DNA from: Vibrio furnissii CIP 102972
GTDB lineage: Bacteria; Pseudomonadota; Gammaproteobacteria; Enterobacterales; Vibrionaceae
DNA: 64,000 bases
Assembly (NCBI RefSeq): GCF_000176175.1
Contig: NZ_ACZP01000021.1
Span: 1-64,000, forward strand
Direction: 5' to 3'
The notes under the pieces were generated by a model. The model did not search any database. It had not been told where the DNA came from and saw only the letters and a list, made by a program, of their open reading frames with translations. The stretch's first letter is position 1; the number at the start of each line of letters is the position of its first letter. Made by a program: the position numbers and the translations under genes. This document shows, in pieces, positions 33,308 to 38,474 of this stretch.

Positions 33308-33674
33308 GGGGCTGATTCAGGATTCGACGGGAATTTTGAAGTCTAAGGTGCATGCCGAGGTGCGGTAGGCCTCGTTAACAAACCGCAAAAAAATAGTCGC
33401 AAACGACGAAAACTACGCACTAGCAGCTTAATACCCTGCTCAGAGCCCTTCCTCCCTAGCTTCCGCTTGTAAGACGGGGAAATCAGGAAGGTCAAACCCA
33501 ATCAAGCTGGCGTGGATTCCCCCACCTGAGGGATGAAGCGCGAGAATTAATTCAGGTTAGCCATTCGTTAGCGTGTCGGTTCGCAGGCGGTGGTGAAATT
33601 AAAGATCGACTAAGCATGTAGTACCAAAGATGAATGGTTTTCGGACGCGGGTTCAACTCCCGCCAGCTCCACCA
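33308..33674 (+). ncRNA. ssrA: tmRNA (SsrA)
   Basis: A 367-base tmRNA. The 5' GGGGCTG pairs with CAGCTCC before the encoded ACCA end, making the tRNA-like acceptor stem. The T-arm region GGTTCAACTCCC is present. The tag frame (33399-33431) reads ANDENYALAA then TAA, the degradation tag of vibrios and E. coli. It rescues stalled ribosomes with SmpB. Its 3' end marks the left edge of an accessory region. Confidence 0.97.
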
Positions 33675-33719
33675 AACGTTTGGAAAGGGCCAACTCGAAA
33701 GAGTTGGCCCTTTTTGTAT
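33672..33719 (+). repeat. Direct repeat, left copy, at the ssrA 3' end (candidate attL)
   Basis: A 48-base segment beginning with the CCA end of tmRNA and covering its terminator is repeated at 37879-37926. The only difference is one base in the hairpin loop (CTCGAAAGAG here, CTCGCAAGAG there). Flanking bases on both sides differ. It brackets the helicase-nuclease gene. Confidence 0.85.
33684..33715 (+). terminator. Terminator of ssrA
   Basis: AAAGGGCCAACTC-GAAA-GAGTTGGCCCTTTTT: a 10-bp GC-rich stem (13 with A-T pairs), a tetraloop and a T-run, 10 bases after the mature tmRNA end. Confidence 0.93.
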
Positions 33720-34246
33720 TTCTATCTTCATGTTTAAACTATTTGTTCTAGATTTTGGCACTCAAGCCTGTGCTATTTATCGATATCAAAACACAGCGCA
33801 CCAACAAGAAATTTTGATGCAAATTTTTCTAACGACGAAGATGCACGGCATGAACTTCTAAATAACTTCTTTCATTACTTGCGTTCTCTGAATAATTAAC
33901 AGTCGCTCGATGAGCCAATTTTTATCAACTGAGAAACTAAAGATGGAGTTTTGTGTTATCGAGAAAACAAACGTTGTTGTCGTCTGGCAATCCATTCGGA
34001 CAATGGTTTGGCCTTCAAACACGCCCCTTATTCATTATGTTTAATCGACAGGATTTTAACTGATTCGAAATTCAGTTGATTACAGATCCCCCCTTTAACT
34101 CATCATCAAAGAATTCGCGCCTACTAATTTTTATTCACACATTACTTCCATCAAATAATCGACCAAAGTTCCAATAAAAACGTTCTGTATGAAATACAAT
34201 ACTGTTTTTAAATCACACATTTAAAGCAAAGTTTCCAAGGTGAGGT
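33720..34246. other. AT-rich leader of the accessory element
   Basis: About 530 bases between the ssrA terminator and the helicase-nuclease gene. No gene is supported. It is clearly richer in A and T than the core genes. TACAAT at 34195-34200 could be a -10 element for the gene at 34247, with no good -35. No integrase fragment, tRNA-like sequence or inverted repeat that I can defend is present. Confidence 0.4.
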
Positions 34247-37200
34247 ATGAATAATCAGGGCTGGGTTCACTATTGGCGTAATTCGCTTGCCGATGCCGAC
34301 AGCGCGAAAGGTGCATTAAAAAAGCAAGATCTGACGAATTATGAGCGGACGACAACTAACGAATTCAAAGAAGGTAGGCTGGAACCGGGTTCTCCCTTGC
34401 TAGAAGAGCTGTTTCGCAATGAACCAGATACCCTCACCGCTGTACAAATTCATCTTCGCCCAGTCACCTACTATCTTAGGAAGGTTCATGGCAAAGATTA
34501 CAGCGGCAATATGCCAGGGGTACTGACGCCAATTATTTGCTCTTTGTGGATCAATCGTGAAGGACTAATGTTTCCCCACACCGCGCCATTCATACCTCGT
34601 GATTTACTTGCTCCTCAAGGGACGGACACCTTTACTATAGCTGACGTCGATAAACTCGATAAATTCCTGACAGTGCACGAAATAACAGCCCAATCGGCTG
34701 AAGGTATTCCAACCAAATTCGAACAAGAAGAACAGTATCTGAACCATCAAAAAGATTGGCAAAACTATTACGGGCTCACCCAAAAACTGTTTGCCGACTA
34801 CTGCGATAGATCCCGAATCGAGCAGTTCTACGAAGACATTGAAAGTCGTGGTTTAGTCAACAAAATCAGCGAGTGTTTAGGGGCCTCAAGACATATTTTA
34901 AAACTGTACGATAACCTCTGTAATTCAAGCAAAGACTTGCCTCTGCTTGATAGTTACGCGGCAAAAACAGTAACCAACCACGATGCGTGTCTTGATGTAT
35001 CTCAGACAGTGAATCTGCGTTTTGGTCACTCAAATCGTCAATTCCCGTTAGCTAAAGCGCAATGCGATGCTTTGGCCCACACCTTAGCCCTGCAGGAAGG
35101 CGATATTCTTGCGGTCAATGGCCCTCCTGGCACGGGTAAAACAACGTTTGTTCTATCTGTAGTCGCATCATTGTGGATTGAATCGGCGCTAAAAGAGAGT
35201 CAGCCACCGCTCATCATTGCAGCATCGACGAATAACCAAGCCGTAACCAACATCATTGATGCTTTTGGTAAAGATTTCGATGAGGGCGACGATGAGCTAT
35301 CAGGCCGATGGTTACCCGACATTTTTAGCTACGGAGGCTACCTGCCATCAGCCTATGGTGAATCGGAAGCTGCCAAACGCTACCAAACTAAGCATTTCTA
35401 TGAAAAAGTCGAACAATTGGATTTTCTCGATCAAGCCCAAGCGCATTATTTGGATAGAGCAAAACAGGCGTTTCCACAACAGAATTTTGCTGATGTAACG
35501 CAAGTTAAAATATATCTCCTTGTCGAATTACGCCAACATCAAACCCAGTTAGATCAAATCCAAAGCAATTGGCATCACTACAACCGCCAACTGAATGACA
35601 TCCATTCACGCCTTGGGGACAATCCACAACAAACATTGGCAGATCAACAACAAGCGGTTTCTAATGCGCAAGCATTGAAAGATAACGCCAAAGAACGGTT
35701 AACTGCATGGCGAACCTACCTAGGCAACGAATCTACATGGTTAACTCTGTTTAGGTGGCTATCGCCAATCAAGAACAAACTTGAACTTCAGCGCAAAAAT
35801 TTCATGTTCAGCCTTATTGAGCACGATGAAGAACACATTGAAAATCTGTCATCAGATCGATTTGAGAGCCTACTCAAGCAAGTATTTTCTAGCAAAAAAG
35901 ATGATTTTGACGATCAAAATAACCGATATCAATCTTGGTTAGAGCAGTATCAAAAGTTTGAGCAATCACAGCAAAATTGGCTTGATTCTATTAATCACCT
36001 TACTGAGAACGCTCCAGAACAAACCATTCCACAACTGGCCGACATCGATTCGGTTTTGGATATCACGACCCGTTTTCGAATGTTCCGCTTAGCTGTCCAT
36101 TACTGGGAAGCATGCTGGTTACTGAGTTGCAGAGATATGGGCCAAGAACTGAACAAGCAGGCCCGGAAAACAGGCTTGAAAACAGTTCGTCCTCGTTGGC
36201 AGCGGCGGATGATGCTCACCCCTTGTATTGTATCAACGTTCCATTCTCTGCCTTCTCATATGACTTATCAGTCTCACGTTGGGAATAATGAGTTTGAAAC
36301 AGACTATCTGCTTAATGAAATAGACCTTTTGATCGTTGATGAAGCTGGCCAAGTGGCCCCAGAAGTTGCCGCAGCCTCATTCGCACTCGCCAAAAAAGCC
36401 TTGGTGATCGGTGATATTTACCAAATCCCGCCGATTAGAAATGTGAGCTCATCGATTGATCGAGGTAATTTAAAACAACATAAAGTGATCAAATCAGACG
36501 ATGAATACACAGCCATTCAAGAGGCAGGCCGAAGTGTCGTGACTGGCAGTGCGATGCATGTAGCCCAACAAGCAAGCCGTTTTCATTATATGCAAGAAGC
36601 GGAACCTGGCATGTTTTTGCAAGAACACCGACGCTGTTATGATGAATTAATCTCGTACTGCAATGAACTTTGCTATCAGGGCATCCTGATCCCCAAGAGA
36701 GGACAAGCAACTGAAGATAGCCTCTACTCTCCTTTCAGTCATTTACACGTCGACGGTATCGCGGAGTCATTTAGCGGCAGCCGACGCAATAAACTAGAAG
36801 CAGAAACTATCGCTGCATGGCTACATGCTAATAAAGCTAAAATAGAGAATTACTACGGTGAACCACTGGCCAAATGTGTGGGTATCATTACGCCATTTTC
36901 AGCTCAAGTGAACCAGATCAAAACCGCGTGTCATGCCTACGAGATCAAAGCAGGTAAAGGGAAAGATCAACTCACCGTTGGCACCGTTCATTCCCTTCAA
37001 GGTGCTGAGCGCAAAATCATCATTTTTTCTCAGGTGTATACTAGACACAACGATGGCGGGTTTATCGACATGGATCCTTCAATGCTTAACGTCGCTGTCT
37101 CGCGAGCTAAAGATGCATTCTTGGTCTTTGGTGATTTGGATATCATCGAAGCGGCTCCATCATCTTCTCCACGAGGATTACTGGCCAAGTATCTCTTCAC

Positions 37201-37765
37201 TGACGAGCGGAATGAGCTTGAGTTTAGTGTTGGTCAGCGTCCCGATTTATTACAAATATGCGGCCATCCAAAATTGCTCACCAATGCCGAGGAGCACGAT
37301 GCGTTCTTGTCTAAACTGTTGGGGGAAGTACAACGAAGCATTGATATCGTCTCACCTTGGTTACTGCTAGACAAACTGCAATCAACTGGGCAACTAGAAC
37401 TACTAAAAACGGCACTGCACAAAGGTGTTCAAATCACCATACACACCGACAGACATTTCAATACCACGGTCGCAAATCACCCAGATACCAATAAGGTAAA
37501 AGCGTTTCAACATTGTTGTGCGACCTTGGAACAACTTGGTATCGTTATCAACGTGATCAATGGTGTCCATAGTAAAAGCGTTTTTGCTGATGATCGGTAT
37601 ATGGCTGTGGGGTCATTCAATTGGTTTAGTGCAAGCAGAAGCGCAAAATATGCCAATATCGAAACATCATTGATTTATGTCGGTGAGTTAGAGAAGGAGA
37701 TTAAAACCCAGCTCGACTTCCTCAATAGTCGCAGCTGCAGCACAAACAAGCAGCCCGTGACGTAG
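34247..37765 (+). CDS. mkoC: SF1 helicase-PLD nuclease fusion, probable type II Mokosh defence protein MkoC
   Basis: A 1172-residue protein. Residues 1-285 match nothing I recognise. A COG1112/UPF1-type superfamily 1 helicase follows: Walker A GPPGTGKT at 292-299, a coiled-coil-rich insert (about 400-620), Walker B DEAG at 698-701, and the C-terminal helicase motifs in VGTVHSLQGAERKIIIF and LNVAVSRAKDAFLVFGD (about 908-960). The last 150 residues form a phospholipase D-type nuclease with one HxK(x4)D motif (His1108, Lys1110, Asp1115), then GSFNW. A single HKD motif implies dimerisation. Type II Mokosh anti-phage systems are one protein with this fusion. It stands alone at ssrA, flanked by a 48-bp repeat, with AT-rich codons unlike its neighbours. 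A non-defence role cannot be excluded. Confidence 0.72.
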   Translation: MNNQGWVHYWRNSLADADSAKGALKKQDLTNYERTTTNEFKEGRLEPGSPLLEELFRNEPDTLTAVQIHLRPVTYYLRKVHGKDYSGNMPGVLTPIICSLWINREGLMFPHTAPFIPRDLLAPQGTDTFTIADVDKLDKFLTVHEITAQSAEGIPTKFEQEEQYLNHQKDWQNYYGLTQKLFADYCDRSRIEQFYEDIESRGLVNKISECLGASRHILKLYDNLCNSSKDLPLLDSYAAKTVTNHDACLDVSQTVNLRFGHSNRQFPLAKAQCDALAHTLALQEGDILAVNGPPGTGKTTFVLSVVASLWIESALKESQPPLIIAASTNNQAVTNIIDAFGKDFDEGDDELSGRWLPDIFSYGGYLPSAYGESEAAKRYQTKHFYEKVEQLDFLDQAQAHYLDRAKQAFPQQNFADVTQVKIYLLVELRQHQTQLDQIQSNWHHYNRQLNDIHSRLGDNPQQTLADQQQAVSNAQALKDNAKERLTAWRTYLGNESTWLTLFRWLSPIKNKLELQRKNFMFSLIEHDEEHIENLSSDRFESLLKQVFSSKKDDFDDQNNRYQSWLEQYQKFEQSQQNWLDSINHLTENAPEQTIPQLADIDSVLDITTRFRMFRLAVHYWEACWLLSCRDMGQELNKQARKTGLKTVRPRWQRRMMLTPCIVSTFHSLPSHMTYQSHVGNNEFETDYLLNEIDLLIVDEAGQVAPEVAAASFALAKKALVIGDIYQIPPIRNVSSSIDRGNLKQHKVIKSDDEYTAIQEAGRSVVTGSAMHVAQQASRFHYMQEAEPGMFLQEHRRCYDELISYCNELCYQGILIPKRGQATEDSLYSPFSHLHVDGIAESFSGSRRNKLEAETIAAWLHANKAKIENYYGEPLAKCVGIITPFSAQVNQIKTACHAYEIKAGKGKDQLTVGTVHSLQGAERKIIIFSQVYTRHNDGGFIDMDPSMLNVAVSRAKDAFLVFGDLDIIEAAPSSSPRGLLAKYLFTDERNELEFSVGQRPDLLQICGHPKLLTNAEEHDAFLSKLLGEVQRSIDIVSPWLLLDKLQSTGQLELLKTALHKGVQITIHTDRHFNTTVANHPDTNKVKAFQHCCATLEQLGIVINVINGVHSKSVFADDRYMAVGSFNWFSASRSAKYANIETSLIYVGELEKEIKTQLDFLNSRSCSTNKQPVT

Positions 37766-37878
37766 ACACAAAGCGTCACACTTGTTTATCACAAGTGGTT
37801 TTAGTACCAAGATAAAACTCGAATCATAAAAAACATTAAATATCATGCATTTAAACAAACACGCCTGATGACACCGGG

Positions 37879-37926
37879 CCAAACGTTTGGAAAGGGCCAA
37901 CTCGCAAGAGTTGGCCCTTTTTGTAT
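37879..37926 (+). repeat. Direct repeat, right copy (candidate attR with duplicated ssrA terminator)
   Basis: Copy of 33672-33719 with one loop substitution, 4207 bases away. The hairpin (37891-37922) still forms, so it also ends transcription of the helicase-nuclease gene. The upstream flank (ACACCGGG) does not continue the tmRNA sequence, so only the terminator part is duplicated. Confidence 0.85.
37891..37922 (+). terminator. Terminator downstream of the helicase-nuclease gene (ssrA terminator copy)
   Basis: AAAGGGCCAACTC-GCAA-GAGTTGGCCCTTTTT. The stem is identical to the ssrA terminator with a GCAA loop in place of GAAA. It lies about 125 bases after the mkoC-like stop codon. Confidence 0.88.
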
Positions 37927-38016
37927 CTACATCGTTCAGACCTAAGTACAATTTGAGCTGAGTACGACAACCTTCGTATTGCTTCTAAACACTGGGATGC
38001 TCAAGCCCAGAGACTC

Positions 38017-38474
38017 TCAACAATCACAGGTATACCGACACTTCGGAAATGCTGTGCAGCCGTAAAACGATTTGCCTGCATTCTGGCCTTTTTTCGCGAT
38101 ACGCACGACCAGCTCAGAATGACAATTAGGACACAACTTAGGAGGAAATTGAGGAGATGGTTCTTCAATCACCGGCTTTTGCGTCAAGCTGCGTCCCTCT
38201 TCGATCATGTGAACTAATTCGCTCCCGTTGACTAGCCACAACCGTTTACCTTGAGCAAAAGTGATCGCTTCAGCGGTAAAATCACCAGAGGTCACGATGA
38301 TCATTTTGCTGGCCTGATGTTCAATCATCACACCATACATCTCTCGCAACACTTGGACCCCAACCTTTCGCGCTTTCCAATGCTTACATTGAACAAGGCT
38401 GAGTTCACCATCTTTGGTGAGCCAAGTATCGACGCACCGTCTATCCTTTCCGTCATCATTCCTTTTCAGCAGCC
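38017..38474 (-). pseudogene. 5'-truncated Mrr-like restriction endonuclease with topoisomerase-type zinc finger
   Basis: The frame encodes the end of an Mrr_cat-type endonuclease, a family that cuts modified or foreign DNA. The catalytic QxK element survives (LVQCKHWKARKVGVQVLREMYGVM), followed by MIIVTSGDFTAEAITFAQGKRLWLVNG and a C-terminal zinc ribbon with CPNC and two more cysteines. The preceding DGG(V/I)D region is altered to GKDRRCVDTW. The frame meets a stop codon at the end of the adjacent LysR gene, with no ATG before the first internal Met, so the N-terminal half is missing. The longest unusual-start frame is 111 codons from 38352. It is a relic of another defence gene at this site. 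Confidence 0.7.

Follow-up and report, generated by a model that had tools for sequence, protein, structure and literature searches.

The Mokosh type II gene mkoC of Vibrio furnissii, its ssrA setting and the type I restriction neighbours of some of its relatives

Identity and architecture of mkoC

The 64,000-nucleotide stretch of Vibrio furnissii CIP 102972 analysed here (the window; contig NZ_ACZP01000021.1, positions 1 to 64,000) carries at 34247..37765 of its + strand the gene mkoC, which encodes a 1172-aa fusion of a helicase and a PLD nuclease and is a Mokosh type II gene, a member of a defence family that has already been described. Its open reading frame starts with ATG, contains zero internal stops and gives the single MkoC match in the assembly (E 1e-3). 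In this study, we establish the family membership of the protein, the conservation of its active sites, its low ratio of nonsynonymous to synonymous substitution rates (dN/dS), its fold class, its ssrA setting and the placement of related genes behind type I restriction (hsd) genes. A passage of a 2026 review places Mokosh among the largely uncharacterised systems (PMC12926258), and no paper devoted to the mechanism of type II was found in the open-access literature searched. What is new here is context, namely the cassette at ssrA, the link of mkoC genes to type I restriction genes, an 82-row alignment and a structural model.

An earlier note made from the sequence alone had recognised the published MkoC layout, and a profile search bears this out: the PADLOC MkoC profile (PDLC03924) scores 1412.5 bits and pairs protein residues 3-1162 of 1172 with profile positions 5-1135 of 1136, that is, end to end. 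Pfam AAA_11, AAA_12 and PLDc_2 all exceed their cut-offs, so that a superfamily 1 (SF1) helicase and a C-terminal PLD domain lie within one protein encoded by one gene, as in Mokosh type II generally; the architecture is unchanged, and the peculiarity of the window copy is that it is the sole long gene between two ssrA-terminator repeats. Mokosh type I (MkoA plus MkoB) has a related helicase core and PLD domain but divides them between two genes. The next-best PADLOC model is indeed MkoA (123.6 bits, partial, with its best stretch at 791-1081 of 1112), and MkoB matches the PLD part partially at 46.4 bits; membership of type I is not indicated, the MkoA match not being full-length and separate helicase and PLD genes being absent at the window locus. 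Type I has also been described with a NERD part (PMC10952713) and, in a passage of another paper, with a kinase part (PMC11672841), and Pfam finds neither in the window protein. The earlier note had named a best match to housekeeping helicases as one outcome that would overturn its reading; the other named helicase models all fall far under their cut-offs, with PLuB_AAA at 85.7 (cut-off 999), the IGHMBP2-family model TIGR00376 at 66.5 (curated cut-off 348.9), ProA at 45.1 (cut-off 1500) and Hhe at 32.8 (curated cut-off 2000).

The motifs that the earlier note picked out are exactly where it placed them, all in one uninterrupted protein and all on the + strand. The Walker A motif GPPGTGKT occupies residues 292-299 (35120..35143), behind an N-terminal region (residues 1-265; 34247..35041) in the position of a Upf1-like stalk/1B domain, and motif II, noted earlier as DEAG at 698-701, reads DEAGQ at residues 698-702 (36338..36352). 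Between them, RecA domain 1 is interrupted by a helical insertion of mostly long helices (residues ~367-655; 35345..36211), and the best stretch of the Pfam AAA_11 match stops at residue 465. RecA domain 2 follows at residues ~770-985 (36554..37201; Pfam AAA_12 at 778-963). The PLD nuclease domain (residues ~1010-1162; 37274..37732) contains the single HKD motif H1108-x-K1110-x4-D1115 (37568..37591), then GSxN at 1122-1125.

Conservation and selection

A search of genome contigs with a small family alignment returned at least 592 stretches; relatives are encoded in at least 409, of which the 80 best were taken forward. Six of these loci, with stops or frameshifts, were removed before alignment, leaving 74 in a sample that leans toward intact genes; with the window, six more genus loci and one class locus, the alignment has 82 rows. 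Thirteen motor residues (K298, D698, E699, G701, Q702, R795, R796, Q887, G912, Q918, G919, S952 and R953) are identical in every row, and the complete PLD set of H1108, K1110, D1115, G1122, S1123 and N1125 is present in 73. In three further rows D1115 is replaced by G or E, and in six the PLD domain is wholly or mostly missing. Among these six, the rows of L108, L117, L126 and L129 seem to come from mkoC genes that are truncated or lie at a contig edge, while L056 and L065 stand apart as a pair on long branches with 31-32% identity.

Whole-gene pairwise dN/dS between the window copy and four Vibrio copies is 0.09-0.12, and residues 1-265 have the highest value among three parts of the protein in all four comparisons (0.12-0.22). 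Motif conservation and dN/dS in mkoC are together far beyond chance and fit purifying selection.

The two long-branched relatives (L056:8623-11688, -, and L065:1326-3953, -) are MkoC-like helicases without a PLD domain on a branch of their own, and the one in L056 adjoins genes resembling type I restriction.

Predicted fold and the N-terminal region

An AlphaFold2 model of MkoC, built from the family alignment, has a mean predicted local distance difference test score (pLDDT) of 87.8 and a predicted template modelling score (pTM) of 0.79. When VIA-align was applied to the Foldseek matches of this model, the highest ranks went to IGHMBP2 (4b3g; Z 21.5, root-mean-square deviation (rmsd) 4.0 over 474 residues) and Upf1 (8rd3; Z 21.4, rmsd 4.7, 481 residues), with SETX, Sen1 and DNA2 about one Z unit below (DNA2, 5ean: Z 20.4, rmsd 3.6, 458 residues). 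By sequence profile, the best solved relatives of the motor are SETX (8ftm), UPF1, DNA2, Sen1 and IGHMBP2, and those of the PLD part are Nuc (1byr) and NucT (6ehi). On profile and model, the predicted motor is of the Upf1/IGHMBP2/Sen1/DNA2 class. It resembles Upf1, IGHMBP2, SETX and DNA2 in its SF1B core and in whole-model alignments that begin at residue 1, and it differs from them by the ~290-residue mostly helical insertion, an N-terminal region of its own and the PLD domain. The fold cannot choose the substrate of MkoC, because the Z values of these relatives lie within about one unit of each other. In Nuc, the active site is formed by two chains. Because each MkoC chain has one HKD motif, its PLD domain probably works as a dimer.

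That the first 285 residues match nothing known, as noted earlier, held on renewed inspection. In Pfam, the N-terminal region yields just DUF6648 at E 0.04, under the cut-off, and no convincing fold match was found in the PDB or BFVD: with residues 1-285 folded alone (pLDDT 86.0), all PDB matches are at or below Z 3.8 and none has E <0.5, and BFVD gives none at E <0.1, in lists that may miss one. In the whole-model alignments, rows of Upf1-type helicases start at residue 1 and two UvrD rows start at 259; because of this difference, the model suggests that the N-terminal region is a stalk shared with Upf1-type helicases, where the alignments give start and end residues and not the share of residues 1-285 truly aligned. 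The earlier note had suggested that the first 285 residues may sense the trigger; a sensor role of residues 1-265 is possible.

A one-gene cassette behind ssrA

The earlier note had missed the setting of the gene, which we add here. Upstream of mkoC lies the ssrA transfer-messenger RNA gene (33308..33674, +), the presumed integration target, and the interval that holds mkoC is bounded by two copies of a 55-nt repeat. The left copy (33672..33726, +) consists of the CCA end of ssrA, a hairpin and a T-run and is thus terminator-like; the right copy (37879..37933, +) is 93% identical over 55 nt and holds of ssrA only the final CCA, and both copies are putative recombination sites. Behind the left repeat comes a 376-nt leader (33727..34102, +), for which a search across 225 other genus genomes gave one 28-nt match only (G003). 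Between the repeats, mkoC is the only long gene; no integrase reading frame and no other long open frame is found there, and the only other frame of at least 60 codons not inside mkoC is antisense (37691-37876) over the mkoC end.

Units of this kind have precedents. A passage on Dehalococcoides describes ssrA units, some of them lacking an integration module (PMC3146451); the tandem repeats of the ssrA end in these cis-mobilizable, integrase-less elements are a candidate parallel to the mkoC interval, which differs in that its cargo is defence. In the Pseudomonas aeruginosa core defence hotspot cDHS2, as described in part of another paper, defence genes likewise lie beside ssrA and Mokosh is frequent (PMC10250203), whereas the present case concerns another genus and a single gene with a terminator copy on each side. 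With a lone defence gene and no evident integrase, the cassette at ssrA provides a simple case for studying gene exchange.

ssrA was sought in 61 genus genomes and is present in each. A terminator word of 25 bases, sought with up to 2 mismatches on the ssrA contig and strand, was found in 17 of the 61, the remaining 44 being uninformative with this word. It abuts ssrA in nine of the 17 genomes, and a copy lies 2.9-44 kb off in nine; among these 17, the window genome alone has both an abutting and a distant copy. Outside the 17, two genomes (G124 and G222) show ssrA with a terminator, a short cargo and a second terminator, and their cargo contains no recognisable integrase among open frames of at least 90 codons. 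The G124 cargo (L155) consists of a dGTPase (PADLOC, 223.5 bits) and a 584-aa protein, and that of G222 (L060) includes a HipA_C protein; the G222 terminators are ~80% like those of the window, and the right copy carries a 23-nt ssrA end. Integrases linked to ssrA also occur in L062, L153 and L154, together with type I restriction genes recognised by eye. Because these ssrA-linked stretches of the genus carry defence-type cargo, ssrA in Vibrio is a recurrent landing site for such cargo.

The nearest genome (G051), whose MkoC is 99% identical, shows a far longer region behind ssrA. There the order is an integrase, Hachiman HamAB, type I restriction and a distant MkoC-like helicase, then a type VI secretion-like cluster (by eye), McrBC and finally mkoC, 40.6 kb past ssrA, with a terminator copy behind it at 44.2 kb from ssrA. 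The distant helicase is 26% identical over its C-terminal part, and a 711-aa piece of it scores 190 bits with the MkoC profile; we rejected the idea that it is a truncated gene, as its frame continues over the border of two stretches. An origin of the window's left terminator by loss of a G051-like island was considered as well. It is consistent with the arrangement but is one possible order of events among others, as G051 contains the terminator word only once and nothing there matches the 376-nt leader. An integron cassette was entertained where 142-144-nt repeats near mkoC (G100 and G060) first resembled attC sites; by eye these are a duplicated terminator plus the duplicated coding end of neighbours, and the attC reading was dropped.

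Distribution

Beyond the genus, copies of mkoC were sought on mobile elements and across wider taxa. At E 1e-20, matches were obtained in three of 50,697 phage records, one of which reaches 80% coverage or more, and relatives are encoded on 17 viral contigs, essentially full-length in three cases. A class-wide draw gave two of 368 other genomes (E 1e-60), with partial matches 38 and 41% identical. In Escherichia coli, blastn found partial DNA matches in 2172 of 5426 genomes; not one reached 80% of the gene, and coverage was 19% among the matches listed. In other genomes of the genus, what is shared is mkoC together with no more than ~520 nt before it and 200 nt after it, and the surroundings are unlike each other.

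These data bear on whether the protein is a housekeeping helicase of nucleic-acid maintenance that merely resembles a defence gene, an explanation to which its Upf1/IGHMBP2-like core and its single match in the genome would lend themselves, and which we regard as highly improbable. The gene is patchy, an unbroken copy of at least 79% identity being present in 10 of 227 genus genomes with the window's own counted (G085 and G138 add, respectively, a broken copy and a PLD-less relative at 34%). It lies between ssrA repeats at a G+C content below that of the surroundings, and at E 1e-50 it has matches in 57 of 72,556 plasmid records, which in 37 cases span 80% of the protein or more; the low scores of the other helicase models also speak against a housekeeping role.

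Type I restriction genes upstream of some mkoC genes

HsdM-like genes were identified by blastp in the flanks (up to 8 kb per side) of 12 of the 74 mkoC loci. In eight (L075, L076, L078, L079, L081, L082, L087 and L129), hsd genes immediately precede mkoC on its own strand, at a distance of 0-145 nt, and no hsd gene was seen directly downstream among the listed neighbours (by eye and blastp hits). Pfam confirms HsdR, HsdM or HsdS in the five scanned loci (L075, L076, L078, L082 and L087), while the calls in L079, L081 and L129 are from blastp alone. Motor and HKD residues are complete in seven of the eight hsd-linked MkoC proteins. The HsdR types vary (EcoEI_R_C in L076 and L082, T1R_D3 in L087), as does gene order, and the hsd-linked label needs six changes on a FastTree tree of MkoC; because of these differences, inheritance of the pairing as one block is hardly likely. 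No mkoC-hsd operon is described in the Mokosh passages of the open-access literature searched, one of which lists a strain as having both Mokosh and type I restriction (PMC10999674). The location of mkoC and the companion genes of its relatives offer clues to mechanism, and because type I restriction genes adjoin mkoC upstream in these eight loci, DNA is favoured as the MkoC substrate.

The same genes raise the question of whether MkoC guards restriction, staying quiet beside a healthy type I system and firing when a phage blocks it. Anticodon nucleases such as PrrC fire when restriction is blocked. The placement of hsd genes of at least two HsdR types directly upstream in the eight loci would fit such a guard, but in most loci, as in the window, hsd genes are not adjacent to mkoC, and we consider this explanation improbable. 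A broader proposal, to which we attach somewhat more weight while still thinking it unlikely, is that MkoC is at least partly a fourth gene of type I restriction, processing the DNA ends or stalled complexes left by HsdRMS or else guarding the complex, and that it has also turned into a free-standing cassette, flanked by terminator copies, which integrases borrowed from islands nearby would carry into and out of ssrA.

In two loci of the Rhodobacter group (L113 and L135), mkoC is preceded on its own strand, at a distance of 73 nt, by an 866-aa open reading frame that is helicase-like by eye only and a possible operon partner.

Proposed mechanism

The best explanation overall, to which we give about an even chance of being right, is that MkoC is a Mokosh type II motor acting on exposed strands together with a dimeric PLD nuclease. 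A Upf1/DNA2-type SF1B motor, made up of RecA1 and RecA2, the N-terminal stalk/1B-like region and the long helical arm, would bind invading nucleic acid where single strands are exposed, with ends, gaps, replication forks and transcripts as candidate loading sites. ATP hydrolysis would move it along the strand, and this movement would position or release the C-terminal PLD nuclease, whose active site would need two chains and would cut the bound strand or its partner. The preferred substrate may be single-stranded DNA at ends or forks such as type I restriction or phage replication would expose. We infer this substrate, and likewise a 5'-3' polarity, dimerisation, gating of the nuclease and an antiviral effect, from the features described above. 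DNA ends are plausible because of the restriction link, and RNA stays open because of the likeness to Upf1. Together, the alignment, the confident model and the hsd placement lead to testable proposals, namely DNA ends as the substrate and a link to restriction. A comparable coupling of a defence motor to a nuclease is known from Hachiman, in which, according to a passage of one paper, a helicase holds a nuclease that is released on DNA damage (PMC12278908). Hachiman HamAB shares the ssrA-linked region of the sister genome G051 with mkoC; unlike MkoC, it has a DEAD-type helicase and a separate nuclease protein.

Several points weigh against this proposal. The solved relatives act on RNA (Upf1, IGHMBP2, SETX and Sen1) as well as DNA (DNA2), and a published passage names RNA or RNA-DNA as the material on which MkoC acts (PMC10740426). 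In a truncated passage concerning phage P1, the Mokosh type II system of Pantoea agglomerans L15 is said to be one that 'did not exhibit' an outcome lying beyond the cut (PMC10999674). As to the restriction link, the MkoC of L129 stops before its PLD domain, near a contig edge, and 66 of the 74 loci, like the window copy, have no hsd gene directly upstream. The hsd count comes from blastp, with queries drawn from two genomes of which L129's is one. General clustering of defence genes could explain part of the link.

The most serious competitor, possible in our judgement though clearly the less probable, is an RNA-targeting Mokosh in which phage transcripts or RNA-DNA hybrids would serve as the track of the Upf1-like motor and RNA would be cut by the PLD domain. 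Upf1, IGHMBP2, SETX and Sen1 lead the matches by both structure and profile, yet the DNA2 match nearly equals that of Upf1, and the PLD relatives found are the endonuclease Nuc and NucT. Both of these act on DNA. Passages in print treat the protein as an RNA helicase with phage RNA or RNA-DNA as its target (PMC10740426, PMC11672841), and one of them proposes that MkoC degrades phage genetic material (PMC11672841). Set against this RNA-directed reading are the placement of mkoC behind type I restriction genes and a review table, seen as an extract, in which Mokosh (type unspecified) is one of the systems escaped through changes in functional phage proteins, for instance DNA polymerase, single-stranded-DNA-binding protein, helicase or terminase (PMC10286901).

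Further genes noted

The 584-aa partner of the dGTPase (L155:1828-3579, -), for which Pfam and PADLOC give no match at the limits used, is possibly an unnamed defence protein. In G146, an 821-aa SIR2_2 protein (L152:2993-5455, +) lies between ssrA and a displaced terminator. In the window, 38017-38352 (-) holds the remnant of an Mrr-type restriction endonuclease with a Top1-like zinc ribbon; the open reading frame scanned covers only positions 67-115 of 115 of the Mrr_cat profile, and a similar short Mrr form is present in G051 (L046:9525-9854).

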